From positions 1 through 49,722 of IMG/VR virus record IMGVR_UViG_3300049491_000329: a stretch of DNA of 49,722 nucleotides. One strand, 5' to 3'. The notes under the pieces were generated by a model. That model saw only the letters and a list, made by a program, of their open reading frames with translations. It searched no databases and had not been told where the DNA came from. Shown piece after piece: positions 19,826 to 45,016 of the stretch. The first letter of the stretch is position 1, and every line of letters starts with the position of its first letter. Both the position numbers and the translations under genes were made by a program. The stretch comes from a virus.

Positions 19826-19829
19826 CCCG

Positions 19830-31391: not shown

Positions 31392-31396
31392 GGGCC

Positions 31397-31403: not shown

Positions 31404-31427
31404 GTCGGTGCAGAACACGATCGCGGG

Positions 31428-31456
31428 GTCACACAGATCCCGGGTTGTAGTACAAT
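31428..31456 (+). promoter_or_regulatory. candidate sigma70-like promoter upstream of gp55
   Basis: GTCACA (31428-31433), 17 bases, TACAAT (31451-31456). It fits early or middle transcription into gp55. It lies back to back with the minus-strand late promoter at 31397. Confidence 0.3.
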
Positions 31457-31515
31457 CGTGCTCAAGTCCGTGGACGCTCAACCCGGGCAGGGTGGGGTGC
31501 AACCCGTTTTCTGGT

Positions 31516-31552: not shown

Positions 31553-32065
31553 ATGACAGCGCTAACCGAAACGACCACCAAAGAACCGAAGCCAGTCAAG
31601 GTCAAGCCCGCGAAGAAAGAACGTGCGAAGTCCACCAAGGGCCAGTACGTCACGAACGCGCAGCTCCTCGAGGAGTTTCACATCTCGAAGGCACAAGGCA
31701 AGCTGACCGACAAGATGGCCGGGTACCTGATGAAGGTAGCCGAGAAGTACTCTTACCACCCATGGTTCGCTGGGTACTCGTTCCGTGAGGACATGGTCTG
31801 CACCGCCGTCGTCAATCTCTGCGCGAACTGGCACAAGTTCAACCCCGAGAAGCAGGAGAATCCTAATCCCTTCTCGTACTATACTACCGCTTGCTATCGC
31901 AGTTTCCTCTCCTATCTCGACGCTGAACGGAAAGAACGCGACATTCGCGATGAGTTGCTGATCGAGGCAGGTGCCAACCCCTCCTTCAACTATCAGGCGC
32001 GAGGCGGATCTTCTGGTAAGACCTCGGACGACACGGCATTCGTGGGCGGCGGCTCCGAGGATTGA
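31553..32065 (+). CDS. 55: late-transcription sigma factor gp55, 170 aa
   Basis: After a Lys-rich N-terminus (1-30), the sequence follows T4 gp55: YVTNAQLLEEF (32-42), then the sigma region-2 core with FREDMVCTAVVNLCANWHKF (78-97), NPFSYYTTACYRSFLSYLD (105-123) and a basic AERKERDIRDE. gp55 directs host RNA polymerase to late promoters, with gp33 and the sliding clamp in T4. It explains the many CTAAATA/GTAAATA boxes in this window. The gene order gp55, gp47, gp46 follows T4. The C-terminal Gly/Ser/Asp tail is the place of the clamp-binding motif in T4, but no clear hydrophobic clamp motif is visible. The ribosome site is AAGG. Confidence 0.85.
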   Translation: MTALTETTTKEPKPVKVKPAKKERAKSTKGQYVTNAQLLEEFHISKAQGKLTDKMAGYLMKVAEKYSYHPWFAGYSFREDMVCTAVVNLCANWHKFNPEKQENPNPFSYYTTACYRSFLSYLDAERKERDIRDELLIEAGANPSFNYQARGGSSGKTSDDTAFVGGGSED

Positions 32066-32155: not shown

Positions 32156-32866
32156 ATGTTCGTCTACACCATCACGCACAAAACCAATGGCAAACAATAC
32201 GTAGGGCTTGACACGGCCCCACTTACTGAATTGCATCGGGTGCGCTGTCACTTTGCCGCTGCGAGAGTTCTTAAGCGTGGTGGAGTCCTGAAGACCCGGA
32301 GCAAGATTGCAAATGCCATCGCCAAATATGGCGATGACTCCTTCATCATCAACATCGAAAAGACCTTCGATGATTTTGAAGCATGCAAGGACTTCGAGAT
32401 TGAACTGATTGCCTGCCGCGACACAGTCAAGAACGGCTACAACATCCTGCCAGGTGGCCAAGGAATGCCTCGTGATGATGACGTGAAAGACCCAGAGGTG
32501 CTAGCCGTGTTAAGGGAGGCTAGATCAAGAGGATCAAAGACCGCAAATCGAAATAGATGGGCCAAGCAAAATGCAAGGGCTGAGATGGGGGCGTGGCTTC
32601 ATACACCTGAAGTTGCCGCCAAGAAGGCTGATTCCCTCAGTCACTATTGGCAGATGCTTTCACCAGAAGACCGAGCGGCCAGATCTATAGCAAGAGCCGC
32701 CGGAAACCCCTGGCTTTATGTGTCTGGAGAGGACTCTGACACGAATCTTCGCTCATTGTTGAGGCGTCTCCCAAAGGGCAGCGTTTCACACAGAACCATC
32801 GAACAGATCGTGCGATTGGAGGGGAAGTATGAAGGGCATATTGTCATCGAGAAGCGAGCCAATTAA
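32156..32866 (+). CDS. GIY-YIG homing endonuclease, 236 aa
   Basis: The N-terminus has V-Y-T-I (3-6) and Q-Y-V-G (14-17) of the GIY-YIG fold, then HRVRCHF with candidate catalytic arginines, SKIANAIAKYGDDSFIINI and FEIELIACRD, whose Glu is the likely metal ligand, and YNILPGGQG. This follows T4 Seg/Mob-type free-standing endonucleases. The C-terminal half is basic and likely DNA-binding (ARSIARAAGNPWLYV). It sits between gp55 and gp47 and ends one base before the gp47 ATG. Its AT-rich codon use differs from both neighbours, indicating insertion. It has its own late promoter. Confidence 0.85.
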   Translation: MFVYTITHKTNGKQYVGLDTAPLTELHRVRCHFAAARVLKRGGVLKTRSKIANAIAKYGDDSFIINIEKTFDDFEACKDFEIELIACRDTVKNGYNILPGGQGMPRDDDVKDPEVLAVLREARSRGSKTANRNRWAKQNARAEMGAWLHTPEVAAKKADSLSHYWQMLSPEDRAARSIARAAGNPWLYVSGEDSDTNLRSLLRRLPKGSVSHRTIEQIVRLEGKYEGHIVIEKRAN

Positions 32867-32867
32867 A

Positions 32868-33905
32868 ATGAGGCTAGCTTGCTTTACCGACATCCACTGG
32901 GGCGCCCGCTCGAACTCTGACCAGCATCTCCAGGACTGCCTCGATTACATTGACTGGTTCTGCGCCCTCGCCATCAAGGAAAAGGCGACGCACATCGCGT
33001 TCCTGGGCGACTGGTTCGAGTCGCGAAACGCGATCAACGTTCGCACCCTGAAGTATTCGCAGGAAGGTGCCCGCCGCTTGAACGCACTCGGCTTGCCGAT
33101 CTTCTTCTTGGTCGGAAACCACGATCTGTACCACCGGTCGAACCGAGAGGTGTTCAGTACTGATCCGTTCGGCGACCTCACGAATTTCGTGATGGTGAAC
33201 GAGCCAATGGAGATCACCCCCGAACTATTCGCGACGCCATTCCTGTTCAAGGACGAGTACCCGAAGCTCGCCGAGCAGATCAACTCGTACAAGTACGTGC
33301 TAGGGCACTTCGAGTTCCGGAACTTCGTGGTCAGCGGTTCCGACCGACGCCTGGAACACGGGCCTGACGCATCTGCCTTCACTGGACCGAAGTACCTCTT
33401 GAGCGGCCACTTCCACATGCGGCAGCTGAACAAGAACGTGATCTACATCGGGAACACCTTCCCGACCACGTACGGTGACGCGGGCGACGACCAACGCGGC
33501 GCGGCGATTCTGCAGACCGACACCGAGGACCTGAACTTCTGGAACTACGAGAACGCCCCGCTGTTCTACAAGACTCGGCTGACACAGGTGCTTGCGGGCC
33601 AGGTTGAATTCAAGGAACGCTCACGCGTTCGGTGCTTGCTCGATGCCGACGTTGGGTACTCCGACGTGCAGGCGCTGCGCGAGGAGATGATGAGCATGTT
33701 CAAGCTCCGCGAGTTCAGCGTGGAGGAAGACGTGCAGTCCAAGCGCGACTCCATCAGCTCAGGCATGGAGCTCGAAGGCGAGCTTGACCTCTCCAGCCTG
33801 GACGCCACGGTGCGGCAGCTGATCCATGAAGGCGTGCAACCAACTCCGACGATCGATCCAGCCGTGCTGGTCGAGCTGTACGAGGAACTGAAGATCGAGA
33901 CATGA
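32868..33905 (+). CDS. 47: recombination nuclease subunit gp47 (Mre11/SbcD-like), 345 aa
   Basis: Calcineurin-like phosphoesterase motifs are complete: D8-x-H10 (FTDIHWG), GDWF (Asp48), GNHD (Asn84, His85), GHFEF (His147) and SGHFHMR (His181, His183). Length is close to T4 gp47 (339). With gp46 it forms the Mre11/Rad50-type complex that resects DNA ends for recombination-dependent replication. The ATG at 32868 is chosen because it aligns with the family N-terminus and follows the endonuclease stop; 13 extra codons upstream are rejected. It overlaps the next gene by four bases. Confidence 0.93.
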   Translation: MRLACFTDIHWGARSNSDQHLQDCLDYIDWFCALAIKEKATHIAFLGDWFESRNAINVRTLKYSQEGARRLNALGLPIFFLVGNHDLYHRSNREVFSTDPFGDLTNFVMVNEPMEITPELFATPFLFKDEYPKLAEQINSYKYVLGHFEFRNFVVSGSDRRLEHGPDASAFTGPKYLLSGHFHMRQLNKNVIYIGNTFPTTYGDAGDDQRGAAILQTDTEDLNFWNYENAPLFYKTRLTQVLAGQVEFKERSRVRCLLDADVGYSDVQALREEMMSMFKLREFSVEEDVQSKRDSISSGMELEGELDLSSLDATVRQLIHEGVQPTPTIDPAVLVELYEELKIET

Positions 33906-34135: not shown

Positions 34136-34404
34136 CTGAACCCGTCGTGTTCGCGCACCAGCGGGCCGCCGACCTGCCATCAGATCGACCACGCAAGATC
34201 GGCTTCAGCTGCGTGTGCAGCTGGCAGCTAGTCACGATCGTCAAGCCAGGTGACAAAGCCGGCGCGTACTGCGAGAAGTGCTCGCAAGTGTACGACGTCT
34301 GGTACGACGGCAAGGTCGACTTCATGCCACTGCCGAGCGGTGCTGGCATCACACAGAAGGGCGTGCTAGGCGGCCCCACATACACAAGGATCTCTGTACA
34401 ATGA
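34132..34404 (+). CDS. small zinc-ribbon-like protein with GTG start, 90 aa
   Basis: Starts at GTG 34132, overlapping the previous TGA, and its TGA overlaps the gp46 ATG. Two cysteine pairs, Cys27-x-Cys29 and Cys47-x-x-Cys50 (FSCVCSW, YCEKCSQVYDVW), suggest a zinc ribbon. The rest has no recognised domain. Its position inside the 47-46 overlap chain suggests co-regulation with the recombination nuclease. Confidence 0.7.
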   Translation: MTEPVVFAHQRAADLPSDRPRKIGFSCVCSWQLVTIVKPGDKAGAYCEKCSQVYDVWYDGKVDFMPLPSGAGITQKGVLGGPTYTRISVQ

Positions 34405-36140
34405 GCAGCACCCTGAACTTCATCGAGCTCGCCATCCGAAACTTCCTGAGCTTCGGCAACCAGGAGACGGTGATTGACCTCGCTGAGCCTGGCACCGTGA
34501 GCATCGAGGGCCAGAACCTGGACCAAGGCGGGTCGAACGGGGCTGGCAAGACGACGCTGATCAATGCGATCTGTTACGCGCTGTACAACAAACCGTTCGA
34601 CAACATCAGCTTGCAGCGCCTGATCAACAGCACGAACGCCACCAAGAGCACGCTGATGGAGGTGCGCCTGAAGTTCGAGCGAGCTGGTGACGAGTACGAG
34701 ATCACCCGCATTCGTGGCGAGTTCTACACGATCAAGATCACGAAGAACGGCGATGACATCACGCCGGGCAAGGGCGTGGTCGAGTGCGACAAGCTGATCG
34801 AGTCGATCATCGGCATCTCGTACGACCTGTTCACCAAGACCATCATCTTCTCGGGGAACGCGCAAGCGTTTCTACAGCTGCCGATCGCGCAACAACGACT
34901 CCAGATCGAGGAGCTGTTCAACATCACGCTGCTGTCTGAGAAGGCCAAGATCCTGCGTGAGAACATCAAGGTCACTGAAGGCGACCTCAAGGTGCAGCAA
35001 GCGATCGTGAAGCAGCAAGAGGTCGCCCTCGAGCTGCACGAGCGACACATCAAGGAAGCGCAGGACCGCGTCGAGAACTGGGACGAGGTGCGAGCCCGCG
35101 AGATCAACAACATCAAGAACACGCTGGCGACGATCGGGGCGGTGGACTTCAAGCTCGAGCAACTGCTGCACGATGAGAAGAACGCGCTGATCCAGGAGGG
35201 GGCGTACCTGCACGCGAAGCTGGCACCCGCCCGCAAGGACAAGCAGAACCTGACCGCAGCCGTCGAGAAGCTGATGGCCGAGCACGCGCACCTCGAAGAG
35301 GCCAAGTGCCCGTACTGCACGCAGTCCTTCGCCGACGCTCCAGCCAAGCTGGCGCTGGTCGACACCGACATCGAGCTCAAGGGCGCCAAGCTCTTGGAGA
35401 TCGAGGACACGGTGTACGCGCTGACGGAGAAGGAGATCGCGCAGCAAGTTCGCTTGCACGAGGTCGAGAGCCAGATCCAACACCCGAACTTCAGCTCGTT
35501 GCTCGCCGCACGAGACAACGCGTCTGTGCTGTCGTCGAAGCTGGAGACTCTCGAATCCGCGGTGAACCCGCACCTGGAGGCGCTTGAGCGACTCTGCACT
35601 GAGGCGCAGAAAGCGGTCGAGAACGACAAGGTCGACGCGTTGCGTAAGCGGCTCGAGCACCAGTCGTTCTTGCTGAAGCTGCTCGTGAACAAGGACTCGT
35701 TCCTCCGTCGTCGGATCATCAACAAGACGATCCCATTCCTGAACGATCGCATCAACACGTACACCGCAAACCTGGGCTTGCCGCACATCGTTCGGTTTGA
35801 CGCTGACCTGTCTTGCACCGTGTCGGAGTTCGGCCGTGAGCTGGACTTCGGGAACCTGTCAGCTGGCGAGAAGAAGCGGGTGAACACCGGCATGGCCCTT
35901 GCCTTCCGCGACGTGCTGCACCACCTGCACGCGAAGAGCAATCTCCTGCTGATCGACGAGCTCGACGGGCAGCTCGACGGCTCTGGCATCGACGCGATCA
36001 TCCGGATCCTGAAGGAGAAAGCACGTGAGGAAGAGCTTGGAATCTACGTGATCTCACATCATCCCAACGTCGCCGGAAGATTGGACAGAACAATGGTGAT
36101 CGCAAAGCAGCACGGCTTCAGCACGATCACTGAAGGCTAA
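34401..36140 (+). CDS. 46: recombination nuclease ATPase subunit gp46 (Rad50/SbcC-like), 579 aa
   Basis: Walker A GSNGAGKTT (44-52), Q-loop region around FSGNAQAFLQL (150-160), two coiled-coil arms (about 175-300 and 320-430) joined by the zinc hook Cys303-x-x-Cys306 (KCPYC), ABC signature NLSAGEKKR (485-493) and Walker B LLLIDELD (515-522). This is the SMC-like partner of gp47; T4 gp46 is about 560 residues. The ATG at 34401 overlaps the previous stop. Its TAA stop is embedded in the CTAAATA late promoter of the next gene. Confidence 0.93.
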   Translation: MSSTLNFIELAIRNFLSFGNQETVIDLAEPGTVSIEGQNLDQGGSNGAGKTTLINAICYALYNKPFDNISLQRLINSTNATKSTLMEVRLKFERAGDEYEITRIRGEFYTIKITKNGDDITPGKGVVECDKLIESIIGISYDLFTKTIIFSGNAQAFLQLPIAQQRLQIEELFNITLLSEKAKILRENIKVTEGDLKVQQAIVKQQEVALELHERHIKEAQDRVENWDEVRAREINNIKNTLATIGAVDFKLEQLLHDEKNALIQEGAYLHAKLAPARKDKQNLTAAVEKLMAEHAHLEEAKCPYCTQSFADAPAKLALVDTDIELKGAKLLEIEDTVYALTEKEIAQQVRLHEVESQIQHPNFSSLLAARDNASVLSSKLETLESAVNPHLEALERLCTEAQKAVENDKVDALRKRLEHQSFLLKLLVNKDSFLRRRIINKTIPFLNDRINTYTANLGLPHIVRFDADLSCTVSEFGRELDFGNLSAGEKKRVNTGMALAFRDVLHHLHAKSNLLLIDELDGQLDGSGIDAIIRILKEKAREEELGIYVISHHPNVAGRLDRTMVIAKQHGFSTITEG

Positions 36141-36143
36141 ATA
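36137..36143 (+). promoter_or_regulatory. T4-type late promoter, 4 bases before the start codon
   Basis: CTAAATACCCGATG: the box contains the gp46 TAA stop and is followed after CCCG by the ATG at 36148. A leaderless late transcript is predicted; no ribosome site is present. Confidence 0.65.
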
Positions 36144-36147
36144 CCCG

Positions 36148-36711
36148 ATGCTGCTCAACCAGATCAAGAAACCGACTCTCCAAGAGGCCCTCGGCCTGGA
36201 ATGGGTGTTTGATCTGCACGAGATCCTAAACACTCGCTTCGATGATGAGGCTTGGGAGCAGCTTGGGAACAAGCAAGTTGGCACAGCTAAGCTCGGGGAA
36301 GAAACGTTCCAGCTGTACCTGGAACCTGGAACCTTCCCAATTGACGGAATCAAGTACCGCTTTATCAACGTGGCATTCGCGAAGCTGATTGACGGAAAAC
36401 CATCCGAAGATCTGCAATGGAACTCAAAGAACGCTAGCGCGGTTGTCGGCGCCATCACGCACGCGCTGCTGGACCGGGTGGCGCTGTACGACTATGACGC
36501 CGTAGTCTTTGTTGCTAACGGTGAACACGCCAAGAAGCGCATGACAATCTACAACCAGGTTGCACGTCGCAAGTGGAGCTCAGCTGGGTTGGGCGTCTGC
36601 GTTGAGAACCAGAAGGTAGAAAACGGCCTCATTACGATCTTGCTCTCAAAGGCCCTCGCCAAAGAACCTCTCGACGCGTTTTACGCGCACCTATCGAAAC
36701 TCAAGAAGTGA
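36148..36711 (+). CDS. leader-bearing hypothetical protein, 187 aa
   Basis: Begins MLLNQIKKPTLQEALG, a member of the leader set with L-Q-E as a possible prohead protease site. The body contains YDAVVFVANGEHAKKRMTIYNQVARRK (about 115-141), a strand followed by a basic helix with an R-x-x-x-Y-x-x-x-A pattern, and ends in a helix. I have seen similar unnamed phage proteins; no function is assigned. The promoter box lies four bases before its ATG. Its DNA looks a little less GC-rich than gp46. Confidence 0.7.
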   Translation: MLLNQIKKPTLQEALGLEWVFDLHEILNTRFDDEAWEQLGNKQVGTAKLGEETFQLYLEPGTFPIDGIKYRFINVAFAKLIDGKPSEDLQWNSKNASAVVGAITHALLDRVALYDYDAVVFVANGEHAKKRMTIYNQVARRKWSSAGLGVCVENQKVENGLITILLSKALAKEPLDAFYAHLSKLKK

Positions 36712-36715
36712 CACC

Positions 36716-37312
36716 ATGAAGCTCCAAGAACTGAAGAACGTCATTGTGCGGGACCATACTGGAAAGCCTCTTAGGGGCCTGGCAAGAGAGATCGCCCTGC
36801 GCGCCAAGGCAGATAGGATCGCAGGCCCCGAACCAAAGATCAAGGACGAGCGGATCGGGAATGCGAAGATCGTCAAGGAAGACGCCCTCGACACCAAGTC
36901 CGCTGAGGACCTGTGGTCAGAGAACGCCGATTCCGCTGCCGAGTACCGGACTGCCGCGCAGTACCTAGTGCGACCGATCAAGGGCAGCAATCCACCGTCG
37001 TTCGAGGCCTTCGAAGTGACCGGGAACCAGCGCAAGCCGTTCGGCAAGTACAACGCTAAGGAACTGGACGGCGTGCTGTCCCCAATCCGGGCTGGCCAGA
37101 CACCCGATGCCGAGGGGTTCACGGTGTACGTCGACGCTGAGTCGGTCGAGGCGTTCCAGTACGACGGCGATCCGATCAAGGTCGTGCTCGGCGATGAAGG
37201 CGGTCAACGCCTCTCAAAGGGCGACTACGTGATCCGGACGAACGACGGGAACGACTTCAAGTACAGCATCGACAAGGCATCGAGCTTCGAAGCGACGCTG
37301 AAGAAGGTGTGA
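36716..37312 (+). CDS. leader-bearing hypothetical protein, 198 aa
   Basis: Begins MKLQELKNVIVRD, again of the leader type. The N-terminal ~70 residues are basic/acidic helical (REIALRAKADRI). The C-terminal half is a beta-rich domain with SVEAFQYDGDPIKVVLGDEGG and GDYVIRTNDGNDFKYSIDKASFE-like strands, recalling small PGDYI-type phage proteins (inference). The gene follows the 187-aa gene by four bases and was probably its partner before a homing endonuclease gene landed downstream. Confidence 0.7.
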   Translation: MKLQELKNVIVRDHTGKPLRGLAREIALRAKADRIAGPEPKIKDERIGNAKIVKEDALDTKSAEDLWSENADSAAEYRTAAQYLVRPIKGSNPPSFEAFEVTGNQRKPFGKYNAKELDGVLSPIRAGQTPDAEGFTVYVDAESVEAFQYDGDPIKVVLGDEGGQRLSKGDYVIRTNDGNDFKYSIDKASSFEATLKKV

Positions 37313-37377
37313 TCGCCGGGTCGTATCAATAGGGGATGACCCTACCAAACTGAAGACCACCATGACCATAGGAACGG

Positions 37378-37384
37378 CTAAATA
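37378..37384 (+). promoter_or_regulatory. T4-type late promoter (CTAAATA) for the third homing endonuclease
   Basis: GGCTAAATACC in the 90-base gap, 18 bases before the ATG at 37403, followed by a GGAG ribosome site. The first 60 bases of the gap show only a weak 5-bp hairpin (TAGGG/CCCTA near 37329-37343). Confidence 0.7.
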
Positions 37385-37402
37385 CCGTTTTATGGAGCAT
37401 TC

Positions 37403-38146
37403 ATGGCAATTGAAAAAGAGCATAAGTGGTGTGTGTACAAATGCGTGCACCCACGAGGTTTCTATTACTGGGGCAAGGGAATAACGCAGGCAGTGATGAA
37501 GGGATCCTACAAAGGATCAGGCACTAAGCTCTACGCAGCATGGGAACTCGGCGGCTATCCTAAGAGCGAATGGACAGCTACCGTAATTGAAACATTTCCA
37601 GTAGAACCGCTCAATGACAAGGGCAAGGATCCTGGAGAGGCAAAAGCCTATGCCCGAGAGAAGGAAATCATTACCTTTGAAATGCTTTCAGATCCCTTTT
37701 GCCTCAATGACACATCTGGCGGCGTTGGCGGGTGGAAGTGGCGCAAGTTGACTAAGACCAGCATCAAGAAGCGAAAAGACGCGATCAAGGCAGCAATGGC
37801 TCGCCCAGAGGTAAAGGAAAAACACACTTTTGCCATGCAGCGTATCAACAAAGACCCGGCAATTAGAGCCAAACGGGCCGCCTCCACTAAAGCATCGTGG
37901 GAAACAAGAGAAAAGTTGCCAATGCCGAAAGAAGCGCTGACTGCAAAACGGGCGAATGAAGAAGCTAGATTGCTTGAAGAATGTGAGAAAGCGCTCGCCG
38001 ATCCATGCGAAATCAACGGGCTGATCTACCTTTCAGCGACGGCAAAGAAGCATAACACAAAGCCAAATAGGCTACTCGAGTACATCAGGAAAACGGGCTC
38101 AACAGTAGTTCTTGCTCCACCTCGGGCAAAGTATAGACCTACCTAG
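37403..38146 (+). CDS. GIY-YIG-type homing endonuclease, 247 aa
   Basis: The N-terminus shows C-V-Y (10-12) and Y-W-G-K-G (22-26), then SYKGSGTKLYAAWEL and a downstream AREKEIITFEM with the probable metal-binding Glu, and LNDTSGGVGGW. This is the Seg-like variant in which Y-K-G-S-G follows the second strand. Residues ~110-180 are strongly basic with repeats like those of NUMOD modules (SIKKRKDAIKAAMARPEVKE). The C-terminal ~45 residues could be a helix-turn-helix (LSATAKKHNTKPNRLLEYI). Its AT-rich codons contrast with both flanks. GGAG precedes the ATG. Confidence 0.75.
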   Translation: MAIEKEHKWCVYKCVHPRGFYYWGKGITQAVMKGSYKGSGTKLYAAWELGGYPKSEWTATVIETFPVEPLNDKGKDPGEAKAYAREKEIITFEMLSDPFCLNDTSGGVGGWKWRKLTKTSIKKRKDAIKAAMARPEVKEKHTFAMQRINKDPAIRAKRAASTKASWETREKLPMPKEALTAKRANEEARLLEECEKALADPCEINGLIYLSATAKKHNTKPNRLLEYIRKTGSTVVLAPPRAKYRPT

Positions 38147-38161
38147 GACATCACCACTACT

Positions 38162-38755
38162 ATGACAGAGCTACCGCGCTGGAACGTGCGGCTTGATGCC
38201 ACACGCCCGCAAACCGAGTACACCGACCTGCTGATGGTCGTTGCTCACCACTTCAAGGCGTACGCCGAGGCTGAGGCCTTCCTTGGGCCGTACAACGCCC
38301 GAGAGCGTGGCAAGAAGTTCTACACCGCGCCGACCAAGGAAGCGCTGCGCGCTTCCATCCGCCAGGGCGGGATGAACGACATCTCGTACCTGGCATTGCT
38401 GAACGGGATCGTTCGGTTTTGCGAGGAAACCAAGGGAACCCGAGCCCTGCCGATCGCGCACCCGTCGACCGTGCACAGCATTCAGCTGCCTCAACCTGCG
38501 TTCGAGTTGAGCGGCACCCCGCGTGGCAGTACAATGGGCTCACATGTGCTGACGGTGCCCGGTGCCGAGCCAATCTACCTGAACGGCGTTCGCGCCCCAG
38601 AGCAGATCCGGTTCGTGATCCTGCGCCCGAAGCTGTCGAAGCTCGGAACCCCGTCAGCCAAGCTGTGGGAGGCCCTGTTGTTCAACCAGAACCACGGGTA
38701 CCTGCCACAATGGACTGACTCCTCACTCAACCCGCGATGGGCGGGTGTGATGTAA
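38162..38755 (+). CDS. hypothetical protein, 197 aa
   Basis: Not recognised. It is GC-rich like the core genes and starts at ATG 38162 soon after the endonuclease stop. The N-terminal half is helical and aromatic (TDLLMVVAHHFKAYAEAEAFLG). The C-terminal half has LTVPGAEPIYLNGVR and IRFVILRPKLSKL strands. No signal peptide, membrane segment or cysteine pair is seen. A hairpin follows the stop. Confidence 0.65.
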   Translation: MTELPRWNVRLDATRPQTEYTDLLMVVAHHFKAYAEAEAFLGPYNARERGKKFYTAPTKEALRASIRQGGMNDISYLALLNGIVRFCEETKGTRALPIAHPSTVHSIQLPQPAFELSGTPRGSTMGSHVLTVPGAEPIYLNGVRAPEQIRFVILRPKLSKLGTPSAKLWEALLFNQNHGYLPQWTDSSLNPRWAGVM

Positions 38756-38761
38756 CGCGAT

Positions 38762-38787
38762 GGAGACCCCTAGGGGCCTCCTTCCTT
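38762..38787 (+). terminator. hairpin terminator candidate between convergent genes
   Basis: GGAG(A)CC pairs with GG(C)CTCC around a CCTAGG centre, followed by TTCCTTC. It sits just after the 197-aa gene stop and before the end of the convergent minus-strand gene. The stem has one mismatch and the T-tract is interrupted. The remaining ~100 bases of the gap show nothing else. Confidence 0.4.
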
Positions 38788-38894
38788 CACGCTGACGGTG
38801 AATGAACTAGGGACCTCTAACGTCCGCGTGAATCCAAAGAACGTCAGGAACGCATACCACAGGTCACGTATAAGCCTGAACAACCACATGGCTC

Positions 38895-39182
38895 TTACGC
38901 GCTGATTGTGATCGTGATGACATCCGGCACTTGGAGCGTTGCAGACGTCGCGTCAATTGTGAATGACTTTTCGATCGTGAGGCCGTTCTTCGACACACGT
39001 GCGGTGTATGTTGCGCCATCCGGTACAAGCGGAAAGCTTGCGCCTGGGGATGCGGTGTCAACTGACGACAGGACGAAACCATTGACATCGACTAGTTCAA
39101 ACTTGAACAGGCCGTCAACCGTACCGACCGGAAACTCCTGTGGTTTTGTAGTAACTTCAATTACGACTGTTTTCGTTGCCAT
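38895..39182 (-). CDS. small beta-rich protein with its own late promoter, 95 aa
   Basis: Starts at ATG 39182 with AAGGAAG upstream. The sequence reads as a single immunoglobulin/fibronectin-like beta sandwich: KTVVIEVTT, GLFKFELVDVNGFVLSS, ASFPLVPDGATYTARVS, IEKSFTIDA and VPDVITITISA. No cysteines or enzymatic motif. A late promoter 57 bases upstream and a monocistronic position on the minus strand suggest a virion surface or decoration protein, which is inference from fold type and timing. Confidence 0.7.
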   Translation of the reverse strand: MATKTVVIEVTTKPQEFPVGTVDGLFKFELVDVNGFVLSSVDTASPGASFPLVPDGATYTARVSKNGLTIEKSFTIDATSATLQVPDVITITISA

Positions 39183-39239
39183 GATGCTTCCTTTCAGGAA
39201 ATGTGTCACACGAACACCCTGCGGGGTATCGCGACGTAG

Positions 39240-39246
39240 TATTTAG
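39240..39246 (-). promoter_or_regulatory. T4-type late promoter (CTAAATA)
   Basis: Minus-strand CTAAATA, 57 bases before the ATG of the 95-aa gene. The rest of the gap up to 39374 holds the divergent plus-strand start region with a TACAAT at 39332-39337 but no matching -35. Confidence 0.65.
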
Positions 39247-39374
39247 TGGGAACATTTTCTCGCAGGCCACGGCGCAAAATCATTGATCGAATTCAACCCA
39301 GATCCAGGCGGTCCAATCAAATCACCGGAACTACAATGTGATCTCATGAATCAAACCTCAACTCAAGGAACAAA

Positions 39375-39632
39375 ATGATCAGCCAACGAACAGCCAAGCG
39401 TCTCCGTTCGATCGCCCGCGGTATGGTGGTCGCTGCCGAAGAAAAGACCGGGAACCAGATCCCGAAGGTCGCGTACACGGCTGACAAGAAAACCGGCCAG
39501 ATCCGCGTCGCGCAGGGCTGCTGGAAGGGCGCGTACAAGGCGCTCAAGAAGGGCCTGAAGAAGGACCACATGGGTTCCGCCTGGAACCAGAAGCTATCGA
39601 CGGTTGAGCAACGCAAGGTGGCCGTTGCCTGA
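39375..39632 (+). CDS. small basic hypothetical protein, 85 aa
   Basis: Not recognised. It is rich in Lys and Arg (about a quarter of residues), with an N-terminal basic helix (RTAKRLRSIARGM) and a central WKGAYKALKKGLKKDHMG, suggesting nucleic-acid or membrane contact. AAGGAA lies 6 bases before the ATG. The stop shares a base with the next ATG (TGATG). Confidence 0.65.
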   Translation: MISQRTAKRLRSIARGMVVAAEEKTGNQIPKVAYTADKKTGQIRVAQGCWKGAYKALKKGLKKDHMGSAWNQKLSTVEQRKVAVA

Positions 39633-39949
39633 TGAGCCTGCTCTCCTTTCATCGGACGAAGCACCCTGAGCCGCACAAGGAGTTCGAGCTGCACATCGGA
39701 CATTGCCCGATCGGCATCTACTGGCCAACGACTGGGTTGCTCGCGTTCCTGAAGAACCCCGTTGGTCGAGGCATCGACATGGAGGCCGAGGAGATGGCCA
39801 AGATCTGCGACCAGCTGATCAAGAACTGGCCGCCGTACGGCGTGAACCGGTCGATGACACAGCTCGAGCTGGCGATTGCCTTCGCCGGGACTCGGCCAAA
39901 GGCAACTGCGAAGTGGGGTGTACAACCCGGGGTCGTTGTGATACGATAG
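39632..39949 (+). CDS. hypothetical protein, 105 aa
   Basis: Not recognised. The start overlaps the previous stop by one base. The sequence contains KEFELHIGHCPIGIYW and MEAEEMAKICDQLIKNWPPYG, a mixed alpha/beta pattern with two single cysteines. The 3' end of the gene carries a promoter-like sequence for the next gene. Confidence 0.6.
   Translation: MSLLSFHRTKHPEPHKEFELHIGHCPIGIYWPTTGLLAFLKNPVGRGIDMEAEEMAKICDQLIKNWPPYGVNRSMTQLELAIAFAGTRPKATAKWGVQPGVVVIR
39919..39947 (+). promoter_or_regulatory. candidate sigma70-like promoter for the polymerase-like operon
   Basis: TGTACA (39919-39924), 17 bases, TACGAT (39942-39947), at the end of the preceding gene and 23 bases before the next ATG, which has AGGAGA. 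It is the same layout as at 857-885. Confidence 0.4.
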
Positions 39950-39970
39950 TCTCTCCACTCAGGAGACCGC

Positions 39971-40288
39971 ATGCCGCACCTTTCCGAGTTCTTTCGCCGT
40001 TGCCGAGCCATGAACGGCCACGCAGCCGAACGTCTCGCCCTGATCGGGGAGCTCCGCCAGCTCGAGCTGATGTTGGACCACTGGATCATCCGCACCGCGG
40101 CGACCGCTGGGTACAAGCCGAACGAGGAGTGGATCGCGGGCCGTGCCGCCTGCGTGCTCGAAATCTCCGCGTGCGTGGGAAAGCTGCAGGCGATCACCAA
40201 GAGACCCCGTGACAAAACCGTACAAGCTCAGCACGAGACAACCGATCTCACCGCATCACCCGCTGCACTGGTCGAAGTTCTGGCCTGA
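39971..40288 (+). CDS. hypothetical protein overlapping the polymerase-like gene, 105 aa
   Basis: Not recognised. Strong AGGAGA before the ATG. Largely helical: HAAERLALIGELRQLELMLDHWII, then AACVLEISACVGKLQAIT. Its last 80 bases overlap the polymerase-like gene in another frame if the GTG at 40209 is that gene's start. Shared promoter and overlap suggest a functional link, for example an accessory factor, but nothing in the sequence shows it. Confidence 0.65.
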   Translation: MPHLSEFFRRCRAMNGHAAERLALIGELRQLELMLDHWIIRTAATAGYKPNEEWIAGRAACVLEISACVGKLQAITKRPRDKTVQAQHETTDLTASPAALVEVLA

Positions 40289-41459
40289 CCTGCAGCGGCT
40301 GCATCGCGGCAAGATCGAGGCCAGGCAAGACCTCGTCCTCTGGCTGGCGAATCTGTACCACGGTACCATTCGGTGCGGCAAGCCACTCGGGTTCTGCAGC
40401 ATCCAGCTCAGGCTGATGGACCTGCGCGAGTGGGTCAGGGACTACCGTCCCGCCCTCGAGTACTTCTTCGAGGTCAAGCAGCTCGGCTTCCACTTCGACG
40501 AGGAGCACACCGAGCTCAGCACCCTGATGCCACGTCGTCTGGAAGCGCACGAGCTCGGGCTGTTGAACGACTCGGTGGAGGCGATGCGGTACGAGCCTCC
40601 AACGCGACCGGACACCTCGATCGTCTCGAAGGTGTACCTTACACCAGGGCTGGATCGTGTGTCCCTGGTGTCACGTTGCCTCACGACGGGCCGTCCGGAG
40701 CTGGTGCCTCAGCTGGACTGGCTGCTCAAGCAACCGTCCGAGCTGAACTTCCACTTCATGCCGTCTGGCAAGCTCCAGCTCCGTGACACCTCCGTCTGGC
40801 CGATCAGCGGGATCGAAACCTGGCCGTCCTGGCTGCGTGAGGAGCTGTTCGGCCCGGGAATCGACCTGGACTCGGCGTACGTGCAGTTCCTGGTGCATCA
40901 CCTGAAAAAGATCCACGTCGCTCGCCCTGAGCTGCTGACGATCCTGTACCCCGACTTGCTGCGCATGTTGAACGACAAGGAAGCGTTCCGACAGGCACTC
41001 TGCGAGCAGGTGCTGCAACGACCGTACAACGAGCGGTACCGTGGGGTCATCAAGGCGGTGCTGATGAGCCTGGCGAACGGCTCAAGGATCTCGCCGTCCC
41101 TGCTGCTGAACGGAAGCGGCTTCAGCCTGACCGCCCAGCAGATCCTGGAAGCGGCGCCCGAGGCCAGCGTGAACGAGCTGATCAACATTGGTGAGCGGCT
41201 CGCTGACATCAGCAAGCAGTTCAACTCGGCGCGCAAGCAGATCTGTGCGCACCTGCTCAAGCGGCTCCCGAACCGCGCGAACCTGAAGCGGGTGTTCAGC
41301 TCGTACTTCGCCTGGGAGCGAGAGGCGCGGTACGCGCTGTGGGAAGAGATTGGTCGTCAAGGCATCATGGTGCATGACGGCATCGACGGGGTGCCGCAAG
41401 CGCACCTAGACCGCGTTCCTGAGATCATGGAGCGCTTGAACCTGAGACTGACCGCATGA
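40209..41459 (+). CDS. compact family-A / T7-RNAP-like polymerase palm protein, 416 aa (novel assignment)
   Basis: Motifs in order: SGKLQLRD (186-193), like the TGR/RGR motif before the palm; motif A GIDLDSAYVQ (217-226), with Asp219 and Gln226 spaced as Asp537 and Gln544 of T7 RNA polymerase; motif B R278-GVI-K282-AVLMSLA-N290-G, the exact R-x3-K-x7-(Y)-G O-helix pattern and nearly residue-for-residue like T7 RNAP except Tyr639 to Asn; motif C IMVHDGIDGVP with His389-Asp390, matching HDSFGTIP. All three catalytic-palm elements are therefore present in a very small protein. The N-terminal 180 residues show no exonuclease motifs. The GTG at 40209 is the likely start (an ATG at 40143 gives 22 extra residues). 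It overlaps genes at both ends. Template and product type are unknown; no annotation of this kind is expected in T4-like phages, which use a family-B polymerase. Confidence 0.6.
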   Translation: MTKPYKLSTRQPISPHHPLHWSKFWPDLQRLHRGKIEARQDLVLWLANLYHGTIRCGKPLGFCSIQLRLMDLREWVRDYRPALEYFFEVKQLGFHFDEEHTELSTLMPRRLEAHELGLLNDSVEAMRYEPPTRPDTSIVSKVYLTPGLDRVSLVSRCLTTGRPELVPQLDWLLKQPSELNFHFMPSGKLQLRDTSVWPISGIETWPSWLREELFGPGIDLDSAYVQFLVHHLKKIHVARPELLTILYPDLLRMLNDKEAFRQALCEQVLQRPYNERYRGVIKAVLMSLANGSRISPSLLLNGSGFSLTAQQILEAAPEASVNELINIGERLADISKQFNSARKQICAHLLKRLPNRANLKRVFSSYFAWEREARYALWEEIGRQGIMVHDGIDGVPQAHLDRVPEIMERLNLRLTA

Positions 41460-41779
41460 CGAATCTTCACGATCACGCCAGGATCCTGAAAGTCGCTGAG
41501 AAAACAACGACCTTCGATGGGCCAACAACGACGGTTGTGGCCTTCCTGCGTATCACGTACACCAAATTCTCGTACAATCAAGTCAAGCAGCACGTGCGCG
41601 AGTTGTACAAATACGCCGGGGTCGTGCCAGATTACGATGGCAGTGGTGGGGACTGGGGAGATGGTGATGAGCTTGTCACGCCATCGGCAATTTCCTCTGT
41701 GATTGAGTCGCTGGAACTGCACGGTGTGAGCGCTTACCCGTGGACCCAGAACGACATGTTTAGAGGGGAACAACCATGA
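41456..41779 (+). CDS. hypothetical protein, 107 aa
   Basis: Not recognised. It overlaps the polymerase-like gene (ATGA) and the next gene (ATGA). Features are a strand TTTVVAFLRITYTKF, a helix YNQVKQHVRELYKYAG, an acidic Gly/Asp-rich loop and a C-terminal helix. GC content is slightly lower than the neighbours. Tight overlap suggests co-translation with the polymerase-like protein. Confidence 0.65.
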   Translation: MTNLHDHARILKVAEKTTTFDGPTTTVVAFLRITYTKFSYNQVKQHVRELYKYAGVVPDYDGSGGDWGDGDELVTPSAISSVIESLELHGVSAYPWTQNDMFRGEQP

Positions 41780-42162
41780 AAATCATTCAAAGCATCGACC
41801 TTGCCGACTGGGACCACCTGATCGAGGAGACGTACGGCCGCACGTACTGCTTCCAACAGCAGGATGACTGCAAGTCGCGTGGCATCGAGCACATCACCGT
41901 GCCGGTGGACGACCCGTACGACTTCGAGAACGACACCATCGAAGAGAAGGTGAACGGCGACGAGATGGGCGTGAGCTTCGCGGCCTGGCTGGCCCGCGAT
42001 CCGAAGCAGCTGCTCGACGCGAAAGACGAGTGGGATCGAACCCGAGGGCTGGACCTGTTCTGGCGTCGGAACTTTTACCCGTCGGTCGACATGGTGATCA
42101 ACGACCTGCACGCCAAAGGCCTGCTGCCGGCCGGCCAGTACCAAATTGTGATCGACTGGTAA
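41776..42162 (+). CDS. conserved phage protein of unknown function, 128 aa
   Basis: The pattern MKIIQSIDLADWD...YGRTYCFQQQDDCKSRG...VPVDDPYDFEND...NGDEMGVSFAAWLARDP...WRRNFYPSVDMVINDLHAKGLL is familiar from uncharacterised proteins of several proteobacterial phages. No catalytic motif is known to me. It is acidic with paired cysteines in YCFQQQDDC. Its TAA stop lies inside the GTAAATA late promoter of the next gene. Confidence 0.7.
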   Translation: MKIIQSIDLADWDHLIEETYGRTYCFQQQDDCKSRGIEHITVPVDDPYDFENDTIEEKVNGDEMGVSFAAWLARDPKQLLDAKDEWDRTRGLDLFWRRNFYPSVDMVINDLHAKGLLPAGQYQIVIDW

Positions 42163-42165
42163 ATA
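42159..42165 (+). promoter_or_regulatory. T4-type late promoter (GTAAATA) overlapping a stop codon
   Basis: GGTAAATACC; TAA at 42160-42162 ends the 128-aa gene. The box is 26 bases before the ATG at 42192, with AAGGAA between. Confidence 0.7.
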
Positions 42166-42191
42166 CCCTCGAACTCCTAAGGAACCCTCAC

Positions 42192-42707
42192 ATGAAACTC
42201 TCCAAGCTCCAAGCCATTGCCGAAGGCAAAGACAGCGTGCCACCACACCCAGGCCGCGAAGAATCGGACGCCGAACTCAAGAAAATCTGGGCGGGCTTCA
42301 GCGCTGAAACGAAGGCCGCGTTCGGCGACACACTGAAGGGCTTCATGGCGTACCGCCGTGGGAACTACACCGAGTTCTTCAGCAAGTACCACAAGTCGGC
42401 AGTCTCTGCCGCAGCTCCAGTGCTGGACATCAGCACGCAGACCTCGATCGTCGAGAAGGTGCTGCGCAAGGCCGAGGCCGCGCTCCCGCACGAGTGCCGG
42501 TACAAGTCGTTCGAGGCGCTGCAGTCCATGAAGGAAGTCGAGTGGGTCACGCAGGAGTCCTCGGATGAGCAAGGCAAGGAAGCGGCGAAGACGATCGCGA
42601 AGCTGATCAGCAAGGCCGGTGTCAAGGGCTGGACGGTCAAGGTCACGATCCGTGACAACTACCACGGTGGTGTCAAGACCAAGTGGCAAGGAAAGGCCAA
42701 GTCATGA
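42192..42707 (+). CDS. leader-bearing hypothetical protein, 171 aa
   Basis: Begins MKLSKLQAIAEGKDS; I-A-E at residues 9-11 is a good T4-type prohead-protease site, with Gly following. After a Pro/His/Glu-rich linker comes a helical domain (LKKIWAGFSAETKAAFG) and a C-terminal alpha/beta half ending VKGWTVKVTIRDNYHGG and a basic tail. The ATG at 42192 has AAGGAA upstream; an open upstream extension overlaps the previous gene and is rejected. It is late-expressed from the box at 42159. No domain is recognised. Confidence 0.72.
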   Translation: MKLSKLQAIAEGKDSVPPHPGREESDAELKKIWAGFSAETKAAFGDTLKGFMAYRRGNYTEFFSKYHKSAVSAAAPVLDISTQTSIVEKVLRKAEAALPHECRYKSFEALQSMKEVEWVTQESSDEQGKEAAKTIAKLISKAGVKGWTVKVTIRDNYHGGVKTKWQGKAKS

Positions 42708-43258
42708 AGCTCTCCGAGATCAAGAGCGCCGCGCCGTTCAAGCTGTACATCGCGAACGCGTACGGCGCCGGGTACGACGACAAGCCGTGCCACAAGGGCG
42801 AGCACCTGTACACCGAGGACGGCGATGACGTCGTGTTCGTCAAGGTCGCCGACGATGGCAAGAGCGTCGTGGTGACCAAGGACGGCAAGGAAGTCAAGAT
42901 GTCGGCGGCCGACGTGAGCGGCAAGATCCGTGCGGCGGATGTCAAGGTCAAGCAAGGTGACAAGCTCGAAGAGGGCAAGAGCACCGTCGACGCCTGGGCC
43001 GCCGCCATGATCAAGGCGTCTGGCATCAAGATTCCGGCAGGCCCGGCGACGTCAGACACCGGCGATGGGTACTGGATCAGCAGCAAGCAGTTTGACAAGC
43101 TGATCGCCGGCCTGAAAGCCGCTGGGTACAAGCACTCGGCCGCGCGATCGGCGCACGTGTACGATCTGAAGTCCAAGAAACGCGGCATGTCGTTCGACTT
43201 CGACGATCCGAACGACAAGGACATGGTCGGCATTCGGTTCTTCGACGAGGGCATGTAA
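42704..43258 (+). CDS. leader-bearing hypothetical protein, 184 aa
   Basis: Begins MKLSEIKSAAPF. The N-terminal ~85 residues look like a small beta barrel (KLYIANAYGAGY, DDVVFVKVADDGKSVVVTKDG). The C-terminal ~80 form an alpha/beta part with YWISSKQFDKLIAGLKAAGY and GMSFDFDDPND. It overlaps the 171-aa gene by four bases. Lys/Asp-rich, no cysteine pair, no recognised domain. Confidence 0.72.
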   Translation: MKLSEIKSAAPFKLYIANAYGAGYDDKPCHKGEHLYTEDGDDVVFVKVADDGKSVVVTKDGKEVKMSAADVSGKIRAADVKVKQGDKLEEGKSTVDAWAAAMIKASGIKIPAGPATSDTGDGYWISSKQFDKLIAGLKAAGYKHSAARSAHVYDLKSKKRGMSFDFDDPNDKDMVGIRFFDEGM

Positions 43259-43309
43259 CAAGCCTCGACGACCGAGAGCACCGAGCAGATCGGTGCAGCG
43301 CATACCAAA

Positions 43310-43330
43310 GAGGGAGCCTTAGGCTCCCTC
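43310..43330. terminator. bidirectional terminator hairpin
   Basis: A perfect 9-bp stem GAGGGAGCC/GGCTCCCTC with loop TTA lies between convergent genes (ends at 43258 and 43358). On the minus strand the stem is followed by TTT; on the plus strand by GGTTGTT. It probably stops both transcripts. Confidence 0.7.
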
Positions 43331-43357
43331 GGTTGTTCCTGGTGAGTCCAGAGGTGC

Positions 43358-43657
43358 TTAGAACGTGAACGACACCGTGCTTGCCGGTCGGACGTAGTGA
43401 TCGGCTGACCACATGTACGTGCCCTCGTGCTCTTCGAACTCGACGTGCTGCGTGTTCGGCGACTTCTTGATGATGTCGTACAGGTCAGTGCCGAGGTCGC
43501 CGTCATTGTCGACCTGCACATGCCAGGTACCGTCCTTGCCGGCCGACCAGGTGATCTCACCAACGCTGCACCCAGCGTGCTTCACGAACGCGGCGACCTT
43601 GCGCTTCAGCGTTTCCAGCTCCTTGGCGTTCCGTCCAGCAACATCGACCAGTTTCAT
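43358..43657 (-). CDS. leader-bearing hypothetical protein, 99 aa
   Basis: Starts at ATG 43657 with GGAGTG upstream and begins MKLVDVAGRNAKELETLK. A helix (KRKVAAFVKHAG) is followed by beta strands (GEITWSAGKDGTWHVQVDND) and a helix/strand end with MWSADHYVRPASTVSFTF. Not recognised. Last gene of the gp26 operon, before the terminator. Confidence 0.68.
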   Translation of the reverse strand: MKLVDVAGRNAKELETLKRKVAAFVKHAGCSVGEITWSAGKDGTWHVQVDNDGDLGTDLYDIIKKSPNTQHVEFEEHEGTYMWSADHYVRPASTVSFTF

Positions 43658-43689
43658 ACCGCACTCCAGTGGTTGATCCTGAGATTGTA

Positions 43690-43932
43690 TCACGTGACGT
43701 GCTGAACGAGCTTGCCCTCAGGCAGGTGCTTCTTGATCGCGGCCGTGATCACGCGCCAGTTCGACAAGTCAGCGTGCAAGCCGAACACCTCGAACAGGTC
43801 GTTTCCACGGTGGATCAGCAGCGCCCCAGCCTTGCCGGCCTCGATCATGCGCTTGGCAACGTCGTCTCGCAGGATCGTGCCGTACCCGGCGGTGCCCTTA
43901 GGAAAGCGAAGCATCAGAGTTGTCTTGGACAT
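43690..43932 (-). CDS. small hypothetical protein, 80 aa
   Basis: Not recognised. The start shares a base with the preceding stop (TGATG). Strands TTLMLRFPKG and ALLIHRGNDLFEVFG surround a helix with DDVAKRMIEAGKAG, giving a compact alpha/beta pattern. It is in the gp26 operon. No motif suggests a function. Confidence 0.65.
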   Translation of the reverse strand: MSKTTLMLRFPKGTAGYGTILRDDVAKRMIEAGKAGALLIHRGNDLFEVFGLHADLSNWRVITAAIKKHLPEGKLVQHVT

Positions 43933-44156
43933 CAGAATACCGGGAAGGTCATCTTGGAGGCGGCTTCCAAGCGTTTGTTGATGAACTCGACCGCCATGTC
44001 GCGCTCTAGCGCGCTCCAGTTCATTACGGTGTCATACGACCAGCTACCACGGCTGTAGTACGAGATCTCTTGGCCGGCCGCGATGAGCCCCTTGGCCTCG
44101 TGGTTCAGCTTGTCGATCATACTTACGATCCTGGTGTGATCACCAGTCAGGATCAT
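43932..44156 (-). CDS. small hypothetical protein, 74 aa
   Basis: Not recognised. Overlaps the gp26 stop by four bases (ATGA). Helical, with HTRIVSMIDKLNHEAKGLIAAG, an aromatic central loop (ISYYSRGSWSYD) and a C-terminal helix (ERDMAVEFINKRLEAASKM). The position after gp26 is where T4 has gp51, another hub-assembly factor, but size and sequence do not support that name. Confidence 0.65.
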   Translation of the reverse strand: MILTGDHTRIVSMIDKLNHEAKGLIAAGQEISYYSRGSWSYDTVMNWSALERDMAVEFINKRLEAASKMTFPVF

Positions 44157-44941
44157 TCGGTGAAAAAAGAGACGGGGTTGAGCGGGAGCTCCACCTTCAT
44201 CGGTTCCTTGCAGTCCTTGCAGGTCAGGGTGACGACCTGCTCTGGGCCCCAGTCGTTCAGCTCGCCAGCGGCCTCAGTGATGCGAGTCACCTCAGGTGTG
44301 GTCAGCGTGCGGATCCACTCCTCGATGAACTTCGGATCCGTGACGTCATCGACCTGCTGAATCATGCACCGCAGGTTCGTGACAGCCAGCTCCTTGATGT
44401 CCTCGACCGTCAGGTCTTTCTTGCCTTCGGACTGGTGGAACAGCGCGATCACGTCCTCGTACTTCGTTGGCCGGGTGATCACCTTGTTCCCAGACGGCAG
44501 CGTGACCACGCGCTTCACCTCGACCAGCGTCGGATCAAGCAGCTTCATGTTGATCACCATCTGATCCAGGTCAACCACGTACGAGTGCTGCTTCGCGTGC
44601 TCACAGTCGTGCTTCACCTCGATCCGGTACTCCGAGCCGTACGTCACCAGCCGAAGGAAGAACAGCAAGGCATCGACGTCACGCCCAAAGAGCTCGGTCG
44701 GCTTCTTGATCTGTGGGATGCACTCCGCAACCACGCTGATCAGGGCCTTGCCGTTGAACAGCAAGTCCGGGTTCTTCAGGTTGATCTCGGTCAGGGCCGA
44801 CATCGGGTGCACGTGAAGCTCACCCTGCTTTGCCGTCGCGTCCAACTCACCGTTCTGGTACAGGGCTCCACGTGATGGGAGCTGGAACGTCCGGCCTGGC
44901 AGGCGGAGCTTGGTGAGCAGTGGATTGGTGCTGTCGGACAT
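44153..44941 (-). CDS. 26: baseplate hub assembly protein gp26-like, 262 aa
   Basis: Matches the T4 baseplate protein family (gp26): LPGRTFQLPSRG near the start, VHPMSALTEINLKNPDLLFNGKAL-type region, a block with PTELFGRDVDALLFFLRLVTYG, and a C-terminal zinc-ribbon-like CKDCKEPMKVELPL. A cysteine/histidine pair also occurs in KHDCEHAKQ. In T4 gp26 helps assemble the hub. It is divergent from the tape measure gene and has its own late promoter facing that of the tape measure. Confidence 0.78.
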   Translation of the reverse strand: MSDSTNPLLTKLRLPGRTFQLPSRGALYQNGELDATAKQGELHVHPMSALTEINLKNPDLLFNGKALISVVAECIPQIKKPTELFGRDVDALLFFLRLVTYGSEYRIEVKHDCEHAKQHSYVVDLDQMVINMKLLDPTLVEVKRVVTLPSGNKVITRPTKYEDVIALFHQSEGKKDLTVEDIKELAVTNLRCMIQQVDDVTDPKFIEEWIRTLTTPEVTRITEAAGELNDWGPEQVVTLTCKDCKEPMKVELPLNPVSFFTE

Positions 44942-44955
44942 GCGTCGTCTCTCTT

Positions 44956-44962
44956 CTAAATA
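44956..44962 (+). promoter_or_regulatory. T4-type late promoter (CTAAATA) for the tape measure gene
   Basis: TTCTAAATACC, 54 bases before the ATG at 45017. It points towards the minus-strand box at 44975-44981. Confidence 0.7.
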
Positions 44963-44974
44963 CCTCGATAGCCC

Positions 44975-44981
44975 TATTTAC
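44975..44981 (-). promoter_or_regulatory. T4-type late promoter (GTAAATA) for gp26
   Basis: Minus-strand CGTAAATAG, 33 bases before the gp26 ATG. Predicted start sites of this and the plus-strand promoter fall at about 44968-44969, essentially the same base pair. Confidence 0.65.
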
Positions 44982-45016
44982 GACGCCCTTCAAGGGCCAA
45001 ACCGGACACCGCCAGG

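Follow-up and report, generated by a model that had tools for sequence, protein, structure and literature searches.

A candidate accessory DNA polymerase of the PolA/T7-RNAP superfamily in the gp46/gp47 gene block of T4-like jumbo phages

Second, divergent family-A DNA polymerases (PolAs) have been described in phages that also have a regular polymerase, and were named divPolA1 and divPolA2 (PMC11348598, Yutin et al. 2024). Another reduced type, TV-Pol, has a minimal core with a thumb, a hairpin Arg, a pair of palm Asp residues, and an Asp and an RxxxK motif in the fingers (PMC2579912, Iyer et al. 2008). In PolA-SSB primases, a minimal A-type core together with a small partner primes with dNTPs (PMC7581432, PMC10061031). 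The steric gate has been assigned to Glu710 in E. coli Pol I (PMC13228545), to Glu615 in Taq and to Tyr409 in the family-B Tgo polymerase (PMC9738464).

We analyzed a 49.7-kb virus record (49,722 nucleotides), which as a whole is called the window below, and particularly a 416-residue protein encoded in it. The family to which this protein belongs shares many properties with divPolA2: a similar length (divPolA2 proteins have ~430 residues), the presence of a regular DNA polymerase besides it, its own N-terminal domain instead of a known thumb, a lack of exonuclease, and a palm with catalytic residues. However, profile comparison detects no sequence similarity between the two. Moreover, RxxxK is retained in divPolA2, the fifth position after the motif A Asp (D+5) is mostly His there instead of the Tyr or Phe of the window family, and the gene neighbourhoods of divPolA2 are variable (PMC11348598), whereas that of the window family is conserved.

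With TV-Pols, the window family shares the hairpin Arg, two palm Asp residues, the fingers Lys and the lack of an exonuclease. However, TV-Pols are found in small mobile elements, in the context of a D5-like helicase or of an integrase or resolvase. The window family occurs in large T4-like phages; this context is absent, and the recognized neighbours are gp55, gp47, gp46, a nuclease and baseplate genes. The PolA-SSB system of SCCmec, CcPol-MP, is similar in that a family-A core has a small conserved companion ORF nearby, but the window family has neither a helicase neighbour nor a known OB-fold partner. In addition, CcPol is recognizably DNA Pol I-like in sequence, and its gate residue is Glu rather than Tyr or Phe.

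Conservation of the polymerase motifs

The protein is translated from a GTG start codon that is backed by its relatives, which begin at the same residue. An earlier reading of the sequence alone (the sequence-only reading) had placed in this ORF the ordered motifs of a T7-RNAP/family-A polymerase. Translation confirms the ORF, the order of the motifs and the position of every residue quoted. That reading also described the catalytic spacings as close to those of DNA polymerase I; 63 and 108 residues separate the successive members of the Asp-Lys-Asp series, near the 53 and 124 of Pol I. With loose spacing windows, the full motif string (D-x6-Q, R-x3-K-x7-[YN]G, HD) was found in 0 of 20,000 shuffles of the protein. 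Without the Gln and the Arg, however, it was found in 83 of 20,000 shuffles, and we therefore did not rely on motif matching in a single sequence. Conservation within the family is a stronger test.

We scanned IMG/VR for relatives in three rounds, which yielded 18, 42 and 56 loci, and aligned 47 non-redundant full-length proteins, including that of the window. Identity to the window protein ranges from 71% down to 32-33%. The family members come from uncultured phages, and many of the contigs that carry the gene are 100-370 kb in length, so we regard the carriers as jumbo phages. A tblastn search of the named phages in INPHARED found no relative of the protein, and a profile search of five large T4-like phages found no relative of the family. 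One relative, 49% identical, lies in a bacterial assembly, on a contig of an Omnitrophota MAG. This contig has the phage gene block and we read it as a phage contig, so that no cellular origin of the gene was found.

Thirteen positions show no variation among the 47 aligned proteins: R192, D219, R261, K282, M286, N290, G291, W369, E370, R374, H389, D390 and D393. The sequence-only reading had made its hypothesis depend on homologues keeping D219, K282 and D390, which all 47 do. The motif set that it proposed stands for these residues, for N290-G291 and H389-D390, and for Q226 (46 of 47), but not for R278, which is present in only 8 of 47. Thus, the beta-hairpin Arg that characterizes TV-Pols is found throughout the family (R192), while their RxxxK motif is not. 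Where dS is unsaturated, dN/dS is ~0.10-0.28, so purifying selection is clear. These patterns help to define the residues of the superfamily: the hairpin Arg, the two Asp residues and the fingers Lys would be those that cannot be lost, while the Arg of RxxxK, Tyr766 and Glu710 would be losable.

Given these alignments, we considered sugar selection. In Pol I, the gate residue lies five positions after the motif A Asp (D705, E710), and T7 RNAP has Gly at this position (sequence FDGSCSGIQ; its Asp is D537 in the numbering of the sequence-only reading). In the window family, the position corresponds to residue 224, which is aromatic in all 47 members (41 Tyr, 6 Phe). In view of the parallels with Pol I, Taq and Tgo, a preference for dNTPs is predicted, i.e., by analogy the enzyme should prefer them, and the aromatic gate weighs against its being an RNA polymerase. 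Asn had been noted at the position of Tyr639 in T7 RNAP, or Tyr766 in Pol I. This is real and holds for all 47 members. However, the window family is not alone in this, as Asn also occurs there in several divPolA2 proteins. Neither the Gly at D+5 nor the Tyr at position 639 of T7-like RNA polymerases is thus present. Compared with Pol I, the family has Asn for Tyr766, Tyr or Phe for Glu710, and Met for Phe762.

Predicted structure and remote homology

We built two AlphaFold2 (AF2) models of the protein, from 16 sequences (model 1; pLDDT 88.7, pTM 0.79) and from 44 sequences (model 2; pLDDT 93.6, pTM 0.85). In these models, DSSP places D219 at the end of a strand (218-220), K282 within a fingers helix (275-289) and D390 in the turn of a beta-hairpin (386-388/391-393), while R192 opens a strand (192-197). 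The order of strand, fingers and hairpin is that of a palm. Residues 33-108 form, in order, a helix, a strand, two helices and two strands, and the N-terminal domain (~33-108) would appear from the models to resemble a winged helix. The region of residues ~109-177 is a putative linker or thumb-equivalent, which is followed by the beta-hairpin with Arg192. It contains short helices (113-125, 150-159, 163-173 by DSSP); in TV-Pol, a pair of antiparallel helices preceding the hairpin makes up the thumb.

Structure prediction and a Foldseek search had been proposed as a check of the polymerase hypothesis, and among PDB entries, the matches of any confidence were polymerases only. For model 1, these were Klenow (probability 0.99), Taq (0.98) and Pol theta (~0.9). 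For model 2, they were Taq (0.82 and 0.77), the Pol I of phage G20c (0.60) and Pol nu (0.44). No unrelated fold exceeded a probability of 0.20 among the top 50 for either model, and the only convincing PDB matches of both are family-A polymerases. It is important to consider that the E-values are borderline (0.03 and 0.08) and the TM-scores are ~0.35, so the PDB match is at the level of the domain. The deeper alignment of model 2 raised pLDDT without improving the PDB match. Among models of viral proteins (BFVD), where the matches include entries annotated as PolA, four pass an E-value of 0.001. One of these, with a probability of 1.0, is A0A5B9N3Y4 of Aeromonas phage 4L372D, a protein of the divPolA2 type and of nearly equal length. 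The predicted fold is therefore closer to known members of superfamily A than to any other fold, with top PDB matches at probabilities of 0.77-0.99.

Searches of Pfam, PHROG and PDB sequences, using the single protein, 26 members or profiles, gave no meaningful E-value, and neither PF00476 and PF00940 nor the phrog_4756 profile matched any of the 26 members. We also compared profiles of the palm half using hhalign, and scored each comparison against 100 column shuffles. The comparisons to PolA (34 of 100 shuffles score as high) and divPolA2 (7 of 100) are not significant, and that to T7 RNAP (1 of 100) is marginal, with motif B driving the score. However, a control comparison of PolA with T7 RNAP, which are true homologues, also fails (13 of 100). 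The method thus lacks power here, and the fold carries the argument; since profiles do not join even PolA and T7 RNAP, profile similarity to PF00476 or PF00940 would be supportive but is not required. In a full-length comparison to PolA, D219 aligns with the region of the motif A Asp, and K282-x7-NG with K758-x7-YG. Profiles relate divPolA2 to PolA significantly, but not the window family to PolA, and the profile of the window family has no match in phage 4L372D, although the divPolA2 of this phage is a structural match.

Overall, the family shares with PF00476 (Klenow, Taq, Pol theta, Pol nu) its best PDB matches and the order Asp - Lys - Asp, but it falls below Pfam detection. We consider the predicted fold to be well supported, even though no statistical case for homology to PolA can be made from the sequences.

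Gene neighbourhood and genome content

To compare neighbourhoods, ORFs were clustered over 45 loci into shared neighbour families (Table 1). The conserved block runs from gp55, gp47 and gp46 through conserved proteins with no assigned role to the polymerase gene, which is followed by convergent baseplate genes. The true start of gp46 is probably downstream of the first GTG. The 197-aa protein of the block has no PHROG match and no relative in named phages.

Table 1. Features of the polymerase gene and its conserved neighbourhood in the window
Feature	Coordinates	Strand	Evidence
gp55-like late sigma factor; opens the conserved + strand run	31553..32065	+	phrog_234, E 5e-29
gp47 (SbcD/Mre11-like) nuclease subunit	32829..33905	+	phrog_100, E 1e-55; Metallophos; 31/45 loci
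gp46 (SbcC/Rad50-like) recombination nuclease subunit	34278..36140	+	phrog_77, E 7e-89, residues 41-619; 37/45 loci
Conserved 198-aa block protein	36716..37312	+	24/45 loci
Conserved 197-aa block protein	38162..38755	+	32/45 loci
Conserved small basic ORF, 85 aa, 'MNxKxAKxLR' type; candidate partner	39375..39632	+	40/45 loci, always on the same strand
Putative divergent minimal family-A-type polymerase, 416 aa	40209..41459	+	translation, relatives, AF2, Foldseek
Arg192 codon; invariant Arg of the beta-hairpin preceding motif A	40782..40784	+	R in 47/47; strands 178-186, 192-197
Asp219 codon; predicted motif A catalytic Asp	40863..40865	+	D in 47/47; strand 218-220
Tyr224 codon; predicted steric-gate position (D+5)	40878..40880	+	41 Tyr and 6 Phe of 47
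Lys282 codon; motif B Lys in fingers helix 275-289	41052..41054	+	K in 47/47; helix
His389-Asp390 codons; motif C in hairpin 386-388/391-393	41373..41378	+	H and D in 47/47; DSSP
Baseplate-hub-like gene; right bound of the block	44153..44941	-	40/45 loci; relative in named phages annotated as baseplate hub subunit

A nuclease gene (phrog_244, E 5e-16) is present in 32 of the 45 loci. At about the place where these relatives carry it, the window has a GIY-YIG homing endonuclease gene (37403-38146), and there is a second GIY-YIG gene (32156-32866) between gp55 and gp47. The phrog_244 protein, e.g., at L082:4244-4849 and equivalent positions of the same block, is nuclease-like (SGARVGGKN ... GDVVPVN ... 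ECK) and is annotated as RusA-like; judging by its motifs, it looks like a PD-(D/E)xK enzyme. In one subclade, a protein of ~168 aa is encoded between the 85-aa ORF and the polymerase gene (L048:6760-7275, L082:5505-6011 and ten other loci), and we take it to resemble nucleoside 2-deoxyribosyltransferase-type enzymes.

Two further proposals of the sequence-only reading concerned the operon, and neither holds. An early-type promoter had been suggested, but our promoter and terminator scan found promoters at chance level (2 found versus 2.2 expected in 36000-45100). The ORF at 39971-40288, which overlaps the start of the polymerase gene and had been regarded as a small partner, does not belong to the neighbour families common to at least 8 loci.

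The reading had also placed the protein in a phage lineage that already has a family-B replicase. This is correct, as PolB is present in 19 of 22 related contigs that carry the polymerase gene; the three PolB-negative contigs are pieces of 104-141 kb and may be fragments. In the window, as far as examined, no family-B replicase was found. A T4-gp61-type primase (phrog_47) and a DnaB helicase are each present in 20 of the 22 contigs, and none contains a T7-type RNAP (PF00940) above the cut-off. Because most contigs have PolB, primase and helicase, the replicase must be another protein, and there is no need to invoke this one for priming. Replacement of the replicase and the idea that the protein is a missing primase were both rejected as explanations on these counts.

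In the interval from gp46 to the baseplate genes, two named phages have no polymerase gene: Agrobacterium phage Atu_ph07 has gp46, small ORFs and a baseplate-hub homologue, and in PA5oct, gp46 is followed by a structural-protein gene. An Rfam scan of the window gave no match.

Elsewhere in the window, a gene resembling cytidyltransferase/nicotinamide-nucleotide adenylyltransferase (30684-31502, - strand), conserved in 14 loci, sits between the virion genes and the gp55-gp47-gp46 run. A 545-aa protein (2438-4075, - strand) has Peptidase_M23 and Glyco_hydro_108 domains and is likely a double-domain tail lysin. A single ORF of 3034 aa (10760-19864, - strand) probably encodes a very large structural or adhesin-like protein.

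Possible functions and relation to divPolA2

According to the sequence-only reading, the protein is a minimal polymerase with a single subunit, belongs to the PolA/T7-RNAP superfamily, and might be a primase-like, repair or dedicated RNA polymerase. Residues, models and PDB matches sustain the superfamily assignment, but not a reading as T7 RNA polymerase. Judging from the conserved residues and the models, it is very probable that the protein has a polymerase fold with an intact active site. Repair fits best among the three roles, since a gp61-type primase is already there and the Tyr/Phe gate disfavours an RNA polymerase. We lean towards an accessory DNA polymerase in repair or recombination, second to PolB in T4-like jumbo phages. 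The repair role is the most likely one from the gene context, because the conserved block directly follows gp47 and gp46, and a further nuclease is encoded in most relatives. A counterpoint is that gp55, in the same gene run, is a transcription factor.

The enzyme that we envisage would be a minimal, catalytically competent member of the PolA/T7-RNAP superfamily that lacks exonuclease domains and has an N-terminal domain of its own, with winged-helix-like topology. Asp219 and Asp390 would coordinate two metal ions, the fingers-helix residue Lys282 and the hairpin residue Arg192 would touch the nucleotide and template, and Tyr/Phe224 would keep ribonucleotides out, such that DNA 3' ends are extended on a DNA template. 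The result could be gap filling, or extension of annealed 3' ends, in double-strand-break repair and recombination-dependent replication.

Several other functions must be weighed against this accessory role. One is that the protein is a DNA-synthesizing primase (prim-pol) like CcPol-MP, whose A-type core initiates strands de novo only together with a small ssDNA-binding partner, e.g., in origin- or repair-associated priming; the partner would perhaps be the 85-aa or the 197-aa neighbour. Minimal family-A cores do prime when paired with a small SSB (PMC7581432, PMC10061031), TV-Pols have been predicted to be prim-pols (PMC2579912), and the winged-helix-like topology of the N-terminal domain could, if the models are right, bind DNA. 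Together with the PolA-SSB precedent, the conserved small ORF upstream, in 40 of 45 loci, keeps this hypothesis alive. We nevertheless consider it unlikely, given that most contigs already have a primase and a DnaB helicase, that no helicase is linked to the polymerase gene in the window, and that the candidate partner ORFs have no recognized fold.

Another possibility is an RNA polymerase of the T7/N4 type, serving a class of phage genes and perhaps working with the gp55-like factor. Among the profiles, only that of T7 RNAP beats 99 of 100 shuffles. Motif B (KAVLMSLANGS) resembles that of T7 RNAP (KRSVMTLAYGS), both following K-x3-M-x3-[YN]-G-S; motif C is HD in both; and Gln226 lies at D+7, as in T7 RNAP. 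Such a role was also left open for divPolA2 (PMC11348598). We find it quite improbable, however, because the gate is aromatic instead of the Gly of T7 RNAP, Tyr639 is exchanged for Asn, the protein is half the size of T7 RNAP, the PDB matches are DNA polymerases, and PF00940 detects neither the family nor any other protein of the contigs above its cut-off. Moreover, gp55 acts with the host RNAP in T4.

Ends made by gp46/gp47 might instead be extended without a template or through microhomology, as by a terminal transferase or in Pol theta-like end joining. Pol theta ranks high in the structural search, the gene lies near the Mre11/Rad50-like genes, and CcPol has terminal transferase activity and possibly uses microhomology (PMC7581432). 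There seems little chance that this is the function, as no Pol theta-like helicase domain or neighbour was seen, and the proximity to gp46/gp47 fits ordinary gap filling equally well. That a palm-like fold was reused for another function in an inactive protein, with partly fortuitous motif resemblance, would be consistent with the failure of every sequence profile to detect PolA homology and with the borderline Foldseek E-values. We regard this as highly improbable, because none of the 47 members, which go down to ~33% identity, has lost either catalytic Asp, the motif B Lys or the hairpin Arg, and the confident PDB matches of two models are polymerases only.

Returning to the accessory DNA polymerase, our best reading of its affiliation is that it adds a third PolA to the divergent ones of phages and can be compared with divPolA2 (2024) and TV-Pol. 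A more specific hypothesis, which we put forward tentatively and consider doubtful, is that it is a third independent lineage of superfamily A in phages, so distant that sequence does not link it to PolA, T7 RNAP, TV-Pol or divPolA2, with an invariant Asn instead of the sugar-sensing Tyr and an aromatic gate, and that it is a polymerase dedicated to break repair in the Mre11/Rad50 pathway, apart from the replicase.

In the usual view of T4-type recombination-dependent replication, a single PolB carries out all DNA synthesis. If a clade of jumbo phages keeps a second polymerase, free of exonuclease, in its gp46/gp47 block, then break repair and replication may use separate polymerases in these phages. 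With divPolA1 and divPolA2, the family would also make three cases of divergent family-A enzymes that entirely escape annotation pipelines.

The structural match in Aeromonas phage 4L372D led to an identification in PHROG. By its length of 434 aa, A0A5B9N3Y4 was matched to QEG08614, a member of phrog_4756, whose gene is at L104:37304-38608. Among the tblastn matches of this Aeromonas protein are 115 Rheinheimera phages as well as MG592441.1, which is the genome of the published divPolA2 representative. It follows that phrog_4756, which is labelled as of unknown function, is divPolA2 and can be relabelled as such. It occurs in barbaviruses, Vibrio phages, ICP1 and Aeromonas phages, and is carried by 290 named phage records, among them Vibrio phage ICP1 (L118:4803-6107). 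In the ICP1 protein, motif C reads YDE, not HDS.
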